Source: Candidatus Bathyarchaeota archaeon
Lineage (GTDB): Archaea; Thermoproteota; Bathyarchaeia; 40CM-2-53-6
Direction: 5' to 3'
Assembly (NCBI GenBank): GCA_005881695.1
Contig: VBBT01000116.1
Coordinates: forward strand, 1 to 45,026
DNA length: 45,026 nucleotides
Part shown: one piece after another, positions 6,916-33,917 of the stretch
Position numbering within the stretch: position 1 is the stretch's first letter
Layout: each line of letters starts with the position of its first letter
Program-made: the position numbers and the translations under genes
The notes under the pieces: generated by a model
Database searches by the model: none
Told to the model about the DNA's origin: nothing
The model's input: the letters and a program-made list of their open reading frames with translations, nothing else

Positions 6916-7534
6916 AACTCTGCTTCACACGCTCAACCGTGGAGTATCGAAACGGGATCCGGGTCTGGTCCCGTCGAACGTACCCCTCATCGAAGAGCTT
7001 CTTCATCAGACGAGCAGTATGCTCTCTCGAACGTCCTACAAACCTTCCTATTTCTGGCGCCGACTTTGGCCCTTCGTCCGCTAGAAGAGTGAGCACTTGA
7101 AGCTCGGTGGGGGTTGTTATCGAGTTCAAGGAACCTAGCTGCACGATCGAAGGATCTGTCAAGAGCGGCGGCTGATTGGCGGTCAGTTGTAAGCTGGATT
7201 TTGCGGGCTCAGAAGCATCTTCACTCGTCATACTTTTAGTCGAGGGCGACGCTGGAACGTGGAGGACCGCATCCGCGACCTGCTTGATCCAGTTTAGCGA
7301 CTCGCCCAGAAGCTTCTCCGATTTCTGAAGGCGCTCCAGCAATACCAAGTCGGACAGCTTGGATTGATCGCCAGAAATCTTGAGCCTCTCAACTTCAACG
7401 GACAAGTCCCTCAAACTCTCTTCAAAAGAACCGAGCCTACTTGAGAATGCGTCGAAGAACAGCCTCGCAATATCTTGGTTCTCAAAGGAAACCCTAGCAC
7501 CGTTTTCGCCTAGGCGTTTTCCCATCCCAAACAT
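6857..7534 (-). CDS. Coiled-coil protein with C-terminal MarR/TrmB-like winged helix
   Basis: A 225-residue protein. Residues of about 20-95 are predicted helical with coiled-coil character (SFEESLRDLSVEVERLKIS, LERLQKSEKLLGESLNWI). A Ser/Pro-rich linker covers about 95-140. A winged helix follows at about 140-205 (TPTELQVLTLLADEGPKSAPEIGRFVGRSREHTARLMKKLFDEGYVRRD). It is probably a dimeric DNA-binding regulator. The promoter region directly upstream (7535-7790) is packed with palindromes built on GTGACGTCAC, which makes autoregulation through those sites the simplest model. Its 3' end overlaps the convergent winged-helix gene. Confidence 0.7.
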   Translation of the reverse strand: MFGMGKRLGENGARVSFENQDIARLFFDAFSSRLGSFEESLRDLSVEVERLKISGDQSKLSDLVLLERLQKSEKLLGESLNWIKQVADAVLHVPASPSTKSMTSEDASEPAKSSLQLTANQPPLLTDPSIVQLGSLNSITTPTELQVLTLLADEGPKSAPEIGRFVGRSREHTARLMKKLFDEGYVRRDQTRIPFRYSTVERVKQSFTKSEGKDHERETVSAPQS

Positions 7535-7538
7535 TTCT

Positions 7539-7790
7539 GTGACATCACGCCCGTCGAAGCTGTGACGTCACGGTAGAGCCACGAATGCATTTAACACTAA
7601 CTATTCGTGGCGCGAATTCAGCCGTAACCCGTCACGAGTGACGGAGGTGTGACCTCCCTGTTGCATCGTGACGTCAAGCGCATGACAAGACTAATGACGT
7701 TCACGCTCGAACCAGCAAGTGACCTCCCGCTGCCAACGTGCCTATTATGAGTGTGATGCGTGTGATGAACCATCACTTGTGTGACGTCAC
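7539..7790. repeat. Array of GTGACGTCAC-type palindromes
   Basis: Within 252 nt there are two perfect GTGACGTCAC sites (7562-7571, 7781-7790), near copies GTGACATCAC (7539-7548), GTGACGTCA (7668-7676) and ATGACGTTCAC (7694-7704), and further dyads CCGTCAC-GA-GTGACGG (7629-7644), GGAGGT-GTG-ACCTCC (7643-7657) and GTGATG-AAC-CATCAC (7762-7776). About ten GTGAC/GTCAC half-sites occur in total. The array fills the spacer between two minus-strand genes and runs into the stop codon of the upstream one. Confidence 0.8.
7579..7610. promoter_or_regulatory. Inverted repeat CCACGAAT / ATTCGTGG
   Basis: A perfect 8-bp inverted repeat with a 16-nt AT-rich spacer (GCATTTAACACTAACT) lies within the palindrome array, 45-75 nt upstream of the start of the coiled-coil regulator gene. 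The AT-rich spacer may contain its box A, so the repeat could be an operator around the promoter. Confidence 0.4.
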
Positions 7791-8379: not shown

Positions 8380-9507
8380 TTGAATACACGCGGGTCTCAC
8401 ATGACCACAGATCCAAGAACAGAGTCAGGCAACTTCGTAGTCGACATGGTCTGTGATGTCTGCCGGGTTGAAGGTTTTGAAGTCGAGAAGAACGCACAGA
8501 CAGGAGATTCGCCCAGCTATTTTGTAGACATTCTCGCGTCCAGAAAAAAAGGCAAGAAAGTCCAGAAAGTCGCGTTCGAGTGCTGGGAGGGAACGAGCCA
8601 AGTCGAAGGTCGAGAAGTCGAGAAATTCGCCGCCCGTTTGAAGAGTCTAGGTATTCAAAATGGGATCTACGTCTCTCCCAGGGGGTTTGGGGGCAACGCC
8701 GAATTCATGGCTCGCAAACTCGGTGTCGAGCTTTGGGACCTAGCCAAGCTGAAGGAGAGAGTTGAAAATATCAAGGCACCAGAGAGGCACAGGGTTCCTG
8801 GGACACTGCCAGTCGCCAGAGCTGCTGCATCTCGTATCTTGGCTCATGGCTTAGTCAATGGCACTTTCCTCAAGTTGTCCTCTATGCCCAAGCTTGAGTT
8901 TCGACCCTATTTCTTTGCCAACTTCCAGATTGGCGATGGCCAGAGAAAACTGGCTCAGGGAGTTCTCGTGTTTGACGGAGTGGATGGACGCGTATGCGAT
9001 GCTACTCTCTTCGAAGGTCACTTGGAAGAGCTTCCGTCGACAGGCTTCTTTGTCGACTGCCTTGAGATCGAACCATCAACGGGGTCCATGCCGAAGTTGC
9101 CTCCAGAACTCGAGATGAAGAACACAGTCACCGTTGCGCCGGCAGGAGTTACTGAGGATATGATCCGAGCCAAAGCCAAAGAGGTCGTCAACGGTAGAAA
9201 CGAGTCAACCGTGACGGGAGTTCAACTGCTGCACGTTCCCATAGTGACGGTGGAGATGCTTGCCGCGGGCAAGTCCTATCGGAAGATTCTCCAAGCGGCA
9301 ACTGGGAAAATGATCTGGGACGACACTCAGAAGTGCTCGCTTTGCGAACACAAGTCCAGAGCGATCTGTGAGGTCTGTGGTGGGACCGTTTGTACTGAAC
9401 ACGATAGAACATGCAGCTCCTGCCGCAAGCACCTTTGCACTGACTGCGTTGTGACCAAAGGGATCGTAAACAAGATTCCGCTCTGCCCTACGTGCAAGAA
9501 TGCATAG
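8380..9507 (+). CDS. Mrr-like restriction-endonuclease-fold protein with C-terminal zinc fingers
   Basis: A 375-residue protein. Residues of about 10-125 resemble the Mrr/REase-like fold: an N-terminal helix (FVVDMVCDVCRVEGFEVEKN), the strand YFVDILASRKKG with the expected acidic residue, KVAFECWEG where an E/Q-x-K motif is expected, then GIQNGIYVSPRGFGGNAEFMARKLGVELWD. Tryptophan replaces the usual catalytic lysine. The middle part is unknown. The C-terminus holds paired knuckles CSLC, CEVC, CTEH, CSSC, CTDC and CPTC, consistent with a cross-brace zinc finger. An alternative ATG lies at 8401 (MTTDPRTESG). A DNA-binding, possibly non-cleaving role is likely. It is transcribed away from the 163-residue gene. 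Confidence 0.7.
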   Translation: MNTRGSHMTTDPRTESGNFVVDMVCDVCRVEGFEVEKNAQTGDSPSYFVDILASRKKGKKVQKVAFECWEGTSQVEGREVEKFAARLKSLGIQNGIYVSPRGFGGNAEFMARKLGVELWDLAKLKERVENIKAPERHRVPGTLPVARAAASRILAHGLVNGTFLKLSSMPKLEFRPYFFANFQIGDGQRKLAQGVLVFDGVDGRVCDATLFEGHLEELPSTGFFVDCLEIEPSTGSMPKLPPELEMKNTVTVAPAGVTEDMIRAKAKEVVNGRNESTVTGVQLLHVPIVTVEMLAAGKSYRKILQAATGKMIWDDTQKCSLCEHKSRAICEVCGGTVCTEHDRTCSSCRKHLCTDCVVTKGIVNKIPLCPTCKNA

Positions 9508-33170: not shown

Positions 33171-33301
33171 GGGGCGGTGGTCCAGACCACGCATCTGTGG
33201 GGACAGCTTGGTCTAAGAGAGCTGGTAGGCGACTGCCGGTTCGGGGAAATACTGGTCTCGGGCACCAGTGATCGTGGGTTCAAATCCCACCCGCCCCACC
33301 A
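33171..33301 (+). tRNA. tRNA-Pro(CGG) with probable D-arm introns and encoded CCA
   Basis: Acceptor GGGGCGG (33171-33177) pairs fully with CCGCCCC (33291-33297), followed by discriminator A and encoded CCA. The T arm is GTGGG-TTCAAAT-CCCAC. The anticodon arm is CTGGT-CTCGGGC-ACCAG with U33, anticodon CGG and G37, all typical of proline. The body is 128 nt instead of about 73, and all extra sequence lies between position 10 and the anticodon stem. Removing a 36-nt piece (about 33186-33221) and a 19-nt piece (33230-33248) leaves D arm GTCC-AGCTGGTA-GGAT-A, a normal 73-nt tRNA. I could not confirm a clean bulge-helix-bulge motif for either piece. Confidence 0.8.
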
Positions 33302-33323
33302 CAGATGTAAACACTCCCGAAAC

Positions 33324-33917
33324 TTGACTCGAAAGATAACGCTGAACATGTACATGACGCTCGACGGGTACGGCGAGTTCCCCAAGTATCCCGGGTCCGA
33401 CACTCGGTCGAAGAAACCCAGTGACGGGTTCATCGACATGTGGATCAACCGGTATGGTTCGGTGGACACGATCCTGTACGGTCGGCGGTCCTATGAGGGT
33501 CACCTTGCCTACCACTCCGAATCCGCGCGGAAGGCATCGGATCCGGAGTACCTTTTCGAGTTCTCGCGCTTCCTGGATCGTACTCAGAAGATTGTCCTTT
33601 CTCACTCCCTGAAGAAGACCGAATGGCAGAACTCGCGTATCATGAAAGGAAGCCTCAATCGAATCGTCACTCGTCTGAAGCGGGAACATGGAAAGGACAT
33701 CATTGTGGACGCAGGCCCCTCGCTCGTTCAAGAGTTCATCCGGCGAGGTCTGGCCGATGACTACCGGATTATTGTTTGGCCGGTCATCCTAGGACGTGGG
33801 AAACATTACTGGGGTTCGATGCTTAAACAGCAGACCCTGAAGCTCCTCTCGGTCAAGAACCTCAAGCACGGCGAGCTGATATTGCACTACCAGACGGTCC
33901 GATCGCAGATGCGTTGA
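33324..33917 (+). CDS. DHFR-like (RibD C-terminal-type) reductase
   Basis: A 197-residue protein of the RibD C-terminal/DHFR-like family. The track ORF runs back through the tRNA. The homologous region starts at TRKITLNMYMTLDGYGEF, so TTG at 33324 (giving MTRKITLNMYMTLDG) is the best start, 22 nt after the tRNA CCA. Diagnostic segments are ILYGRRSYEG, KIVLSHSLKKTEW, IIVDAGPSLVQEFIRRGLADDYRIIVWPVILGRGKHYW. It probably reduces a pterin- or flavin-related substrate with NADPH. The exact reaction is unknown. Confidence 0.82.
   Translation: MTRKITLNMYMTLDGYGEFPKYPGSDTRSKKPSDGFIDMWINRYGSVDTILYGRRSYEGHLAYHSESARKASDPEYLFEFSRFLDRTQKIVLSHSLKKTEWQNSRIMKGSLNRIVTRLKREHGKDIIVDAGPSLVQEFIRRGLADDYRIIVWPVILGRGKHYWGSMLKQQTLKLLSVKNLKHGELILHYQTVRSQMR

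Follow-up and report, generated by a model that had tools for sequence, protein, structure and literature searches.

An interrupted tRNA-Pro(CGG) gene

The window, by which we mean the whole 45,026-nucleotide stretch that was analysed, is one contig of a 2.0 Mb draft genome (182 contigs, ~82% complete). Its positions 33171-33301 hold the arms of a tRNA-Pro(CGG) together with surplus DNA, which raises the question of whether this is a working gene and how the extra sequence would be removed. By reading of the sequence, the acceptor arm (GGGGCGG/CCGCCCC) is intact, the anticodon arm reads CTGGT CTCGGGC ACCAG with anticodon CGG, and the T arm (GTGGG TTCAAAT CCCAC) is followed by an encoded CCA. 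The surplus sits between position 9 and the anticodon stem. ARAGORN detected no tRNA in the window, and the sole match to the Rfam tRNA model, at 33219-33298 (31.7 bits), was in a false register, so the insertion is real and defeats the finders that were run.

Among named organisms, the genome is closest to 'Candidatus Bathyarchaeota archaeon BA_n' and to related metagenome assemblies, whose soil origin is taken from sample names. The 5' exon, GGGGCGGTGGTCCAG, was found exactly, once per genome, in 21/21 genomes of the same family, and the reading of many distinct orthologs, which come from four genera, shows that the insertion is not an assembly error. A mechanical ORF for a RibD_C-domain protein (33177-33917) extends back through the tRNA; its true start must lie 3' of the tRNA, near 33350.

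Intron boundaries

The boundaries were obtained from orthologs read from the same gene neighbourhood in public assemblies and in genomes of the family. Both introns are absent from three relatives: L288 (genome G034), from another family of the same order, with the D arm TGGTCTAGCTTGGTCTAAGATA, and L112 (G040) and L110 (G050), which belong to the class but are more distant and read GTCCAGATTGGTCTAAGATT and GTCCAGCATGGTCTACGATT, respectively. Two further orthologs each have a single intron missing. L099 (G011) has kept the first insert and lacks exactly intron 2, reading TCTAAGATACC, while L062 (UBA185; the same gene as L145 in G002) lacks exactly intron 1, reading GTCCAGCATGGTCTAAGAT, and enters an assembly gap partway through the second insert. 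Removing 33186-33206 and 33218-33248 from the window gene leaves the mature D arm GTCC-AGCTTGGTCTA-AGAT-A. This arm matches the natural intronless products, which places the introns at 15/16 and 23/24, and the whole spliced tRNA matches these orthologs (L288, L112, L110, L099 and L062). ARAGORN accepted the spliced product as tRNA-Pro(cgg), 79 nt, and rejected the unspliced gene. One point counts against the model: the 13-22 pair of the mature tRNA is C-A. The parts of the gene are as follows.

33171-33185, + strand: exon 1, with the acceptor 5' strand, positions 8-9, the D-stem 5' strand GTCC, A14 and G15; identical in the 21 family genomes.
33180-33183, + strand: exon strand GTCC of the central helix of bulge-helix-bulge (BHB) 1, pairing with GGAC at 33201-33204; 100% of cells paired in 17/17 sequences.
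33184-33186 (AGA) and 33205-33207 (AGC), + strand: 3-nt bulges of BHB 1, flanking the central helix GTCC/GGAC.
33186-33206, + strand: intron 1, 21 nt, at 15/16; the best BHB in nearly all orthologs read, with compensatory changes; neither L062/G002 nor L288 has it. Owing to the AG repeat, a shift of the register by 1-2 nt makes no difference.
33187-33200, + strand: inner hairpin CCAC/GTGG of intron 1; changes on both sides in 3/4 pairs.
33207-33217, + strand: exon 2, with the D loop CTTGGTCTA and positions 22-23 (AG); invariant in eight equal-length orthologs and the same in intronless L288.
33218-33248, + strand: intron 2, 31 nt, at 23/24; precisely absent in L099/G011, L288, L110 and L112. 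Since intron 2 and exon 3 each start with A, the register 33219-33249 (24/25) fits equally well.
33219-33242, + strand: 10-bp hairpin GAGCTGGTAG/CTGCCGGTTC of intron 2, loop GCGA; across 9 orthologs, 96.6% of cells are paired and two double changes occur.
33249-33298, + strand: exon 3, positions 24-73, with the D-stem end, anticodon arm CTGGT-CTCGGGC-ACCAG, variable loop, T arm, acceptor 3' strand and discriminator A; identical in eight orthologs.
33299-33301, + strand: encoded CCA, read from the sequence; some orthologs do not encode it.

The comparison bears out the main claims of an earlier sequence-only reading, namely an intact tRNA-Pro(CGG) with extra D-arm DNA and two non-canonical introns near 15/16 and 23/24, and corrects its details. 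The surplus comes to 52 nt rather than about 55. Introns of 36 nt (33186-33221) and 19 nt (33230-33248) had been proposed, giving the D arm GTCC-AGCTGGTA-GGAT and the diagnostic spliced sequence AGCTTGGTCTAAGAT. This product is likewise accepted by ARAGORN as tRNA-Pro and has a perfect 4-bp D stem. However, its D loop, CTGGTAGG, is part of a hairpin that varies among relatives (CCGGTAGG, CTGGCAGG and others) and is missing in L060, L052, L099 and L288; the segment CTGGTA (33222-33227) that had been assigned to it lies inside the hairpin of intron 2. In contrast, CTTGGTCTAAG is invariant in the subgroup and equals the D loop of the intronless orthologs, which identify AGCTTGGTCTA as the true D loop. 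A BHB was looked for at the bonds of the alternative splice and none was found. We therefore consider this splice very improbable and use the ortholog-based boundaries in what follows.

Among eight equal-length orthologs from eight species, 0/76 exon columns varied, and the mean divergence was 8.5% in intron 1 and 20% in intron 2. In a plasmid similarity search, the only matches were short ones, to the conserved 3' part.

Splicing motifs

Intron 1 forms GTCC|AGA|CCAC...GTGG|GGAC|AGC, that is, a 4-bp central helix between two 3-nt bulges, and all of its pairs are kept in 17/17 distinct sequences. The inner helix, of 4-5 pairs, is CCAC/GTGG in the window copy and becomes CTGCC/GGCAG or CTGTC/GACGG in relatives. 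Eight cells of BHB 1 are changed on both sides, and the covariation score was reached by 0/500 shuffles; when the structure was slid along the sequence, only 39-54% of cells paired. The outer helix consists of a single G-U pair, so the motif is of the relaxed form (HBh'). In RNAfold, the BHB-1 fold lies 1.0 kcal/mol above the minimum in the window copy, because AGACCA can pair with TGGTCT, and 0-2.9 kcal/mol above it in six other orthologs.

The motif of intron 2 is less regular. About 67-69% of the cells of its central helix are paired in the subgroup (66.7% over nine orthologs), which indicates a relaxed motif in the window copy. There, the central helix is weak, with some three pairs that include at least one G-U, and there is little outer helix. 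In L055 and L057, intron 2 has a perfect hBHBh' motif, GGT CTAA GAT...TTAG CGT ACC, giving the same product. That the earlier reading found no clean BHB at either boundary is fair for intron 2 of the window copy and wrong for intron 1, where GTCC/GGAC is flanked by the AGA and AGC bulges.

The degenerate motif of intron 2 might suggest that only intron 1 is spliced by protein and that the second insert is retained in the RNA as an extended D-arm hairpin. Such a 31-nt hairpin would split the D stem, however, and the length of the insert differs between orthologs, from 0 to 31 nt, while their exons stay the same; together with the perfect motif in L055/L057, this makes retention most unlikely. 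Still less probable, to the point of being nearly negligible, is that the locus is a disrupted, dead tRNA gene. The failure of the tRNA finders (ARAGORN and the Rfam model) on the gene would fit a pseudogene, but eight species share identical exons around diverging inserts, compensatory changes are present, and the 5' exon is kept by every family member. A second intact tRNA-Pro(CGG), named beforehand as the sign that this copy is dead, was looked for, and none was found in the window genome at its ~82% completeness.

Splicing machinery and proposed processing

The genome encodes two splicing-endonuclease proteins, each with PF01974 and PF02778, and an RtcB ligase (571 bits). The alpha subunit aligns over nearly its full length with PDB entries 3p1z/3ajv (E 7.8e-42), the Aeropyrum pernix enzyme, and the alignment includes the histidine of the HAPF motif and a lysine at the position of K44 (A. 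pernix numbering), a residue of the Crenarchaea-specific loop. The beta subunit has a divergent sequence, and no counterpart of the alpha histidine segment was found in its alignment. Since alpha has a K44-type lysine and beta is divergent, an (alpha-beta)2 assembly seems likely. By sequence, the enzyme would thus resemble the (alpha-beta)2 endonuclease of A. pernix in its alpha subunit, with a loop lysine at residue 44, and differ from it in its divergent beta subunit. Endonucleases of this type tolerate relaxed motifs and accompany non-canonical introns (PMC4090602, PMC12397907). By gene presence, endonuclease plus RtcB, the genome appears equipped to process relaxed motifs.

We are highly confident that this tRNA-Pro(CGG) gene is functional and that its D arm holds two archaeal protein-spliced introns, almost certainly cut out by the tRNA-splicing enzyme of the cell. 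From the boundaries relative to naturally intronless orthologs, the structures, the conservation and the enzyme genes, we infer transcription, the exact cuts and ligation. In the pre-tRNA, the D-stem strand GTCC would pair with GGAC near the end of intron 1 to form a BHB, which the putative (alpha-beta)2 heterotetramer would cut at AG^A and AG^C to free the 21-nt intron. Intron 2 would fold as a long hairpin closed by a relaxed BHB, roughly UCU with GGA/GGG, and would be cut at AAG^A and AA^A to release 31 nt. RtcB would then ligate the exons into a 76-nt tRNA plus CCA with the D arm GUCC-AGCUUGGUCUA-AGAU-A. The archaeal multi-intron tRNA is already a known gene structure, and the window gene is another case of it, not a dead gene.

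An apparently intron-rich tRNA set

The tRNA genes of the genome were located through a T-arm pattern, which genes with T-arm introns escape. About 29 of the 32 genes found in this way (loci L002-L243, e.g., L186, L189, L234, L241, L235 and L018, leaving out a further row, L181, that looks false) exceed the length of a mature tRNA, in some cases by 60-110 nt, and look interrupted. A rough, greedy intron parser assigned two or three BHB introns to several class-I genes, for example three each to tRNA-Lys(UUU), tRNA-Asn(GUU) and tRNA-Pro(GGG). Its counts are a guide only: it recovers the known Pro cases and the four introns of the ortholog described below, overfits long genes and fails on several. 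For the window copy, it slightly favoured a three-intron reading, by 0.1 to 1.1 units, which the ortholog comparison does not support. Two other genes are worth recording. At L186, the tRNA-Glu(UUC) gene is 188 nt long; it may contain four introns, of which one possibly lies 5' of the anticodon. L166 and L174 are two near-identical tRNA-Pro(UGG) genes in one genome bin, each with a D-arm and a canonical intron, which may reflect a strain mixture (contamination 4%).

Published values are 0.84 introns per tRNA gene for the Thermoproteales and, as the archaeal maximum, three in one gene (PMC8450103, PMC4033280). With ~29/32 tRNA genes apparently interrupted, compared with these figures, the window gene is typical of a tRNA set that is unusually rich in introns, and it is not unusual for its lineage. 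A search of the open-access literature turned up no paper dealing with tRNA introns in Bathyarchaeia.

Two known systems are close to the present one. According to the passage of PMC4090602 that cites Sugahara 2007, the tRNA-Pro(UGG) of Pyrobaculum islandicum has introns at 25/26, 37/38 and 56/57. Such multi-intron tRNA genes of the Thermoproteales share with the window gene short BHB or relaxed-BHB introns, the Pro isotype, several introns per gene and, probably, a lineage with an alpha2-beta2 endonuclease. The positions are other ones, since the two introns of the window gene, at 15/16 and 23/24, both fall in the D arm, and the host is a soil Bathyarchaeon, not a hyperthermophile. In Caldiarchaeum subterraneum, tRNA-Thr(GGU) has introns at 24/25 and 45/46, and their number varies by strain (PMC3293823). 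Its 24/25 intron is likewise gained or lost among close relatives, but its D arm holds only one intron and the isotype is different.

An apparent four-intron ortholog and possible traces of integration

The ortholog in a sister genus, L150 1501-1675 (contig C17 of genome G019), has four apparent introns, at 15/16, 25/26, 37/38 and 59/60, the last in the T loop. Each has a BHB or a structure close to one, with 3/4 central pairs in the T-loop intron, and removal of all four leaves exactly the expected tRNA-Pro(CGG). Four introns were also the best solution of the parser when boundaries were not supplied. The open-access literature that was searched yielded no archaeal tRNA with as many as four introns.

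Taken together, it is probable that this soil Bathyarchaeia family is hyper-interrupted, with one to three introns in most tRNA genes and four, more than the published three, in the G019 ortholog, and that introns are still being gained and lost outside the hyperthermophiles, with the window gene as one stage of this process. So far, dense multiple tRNA introns have been viewed chiefly as a trait of the Thermoproteales. Here, roughly nine in ten detected tRNA genes appear interrupted, and a single locus has 0, 1, 2 or apparently 4 introns among relatives with nearly unchanged exons, a natural series for testing how tRNA introns are gained and lost. The results also suggest a reason why simple tRNA finders miss tRNAs in such metagenome genomes, which could make these genomes look less complete than they are.

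Some related loci carry additional tRNA fragments. In L050 (~7110-7180) and L060 (~9140-9195), the 3' half of tRNA-Pro(CGG) occurs a second time, ~1.5 kb downstream of the intact gene; two genes that match no recognised family lie in between, and no integrase was seen there. This second half looks like the scar of DNA integrated at tRNA-Pro, and nearby tRNA fragments left by integrating DNA are a further likeness to C. subterraneum. At ~1575-1640 of L058, a 3' tRNA-Pro fragment is split by 24 nt with the inverted repeat GCGTTCGTCTCCAAAGGAGCGAAC and adjoins small ORFs without Pfam matches, possibly an integrated element. In L049, a free-standing LAGLIDADG gene, which was seen in none of the other inspected neighbourhoods, lies directly upstream of tRNA-Pro (7064-7774; PF14528, E 8.7e-14).
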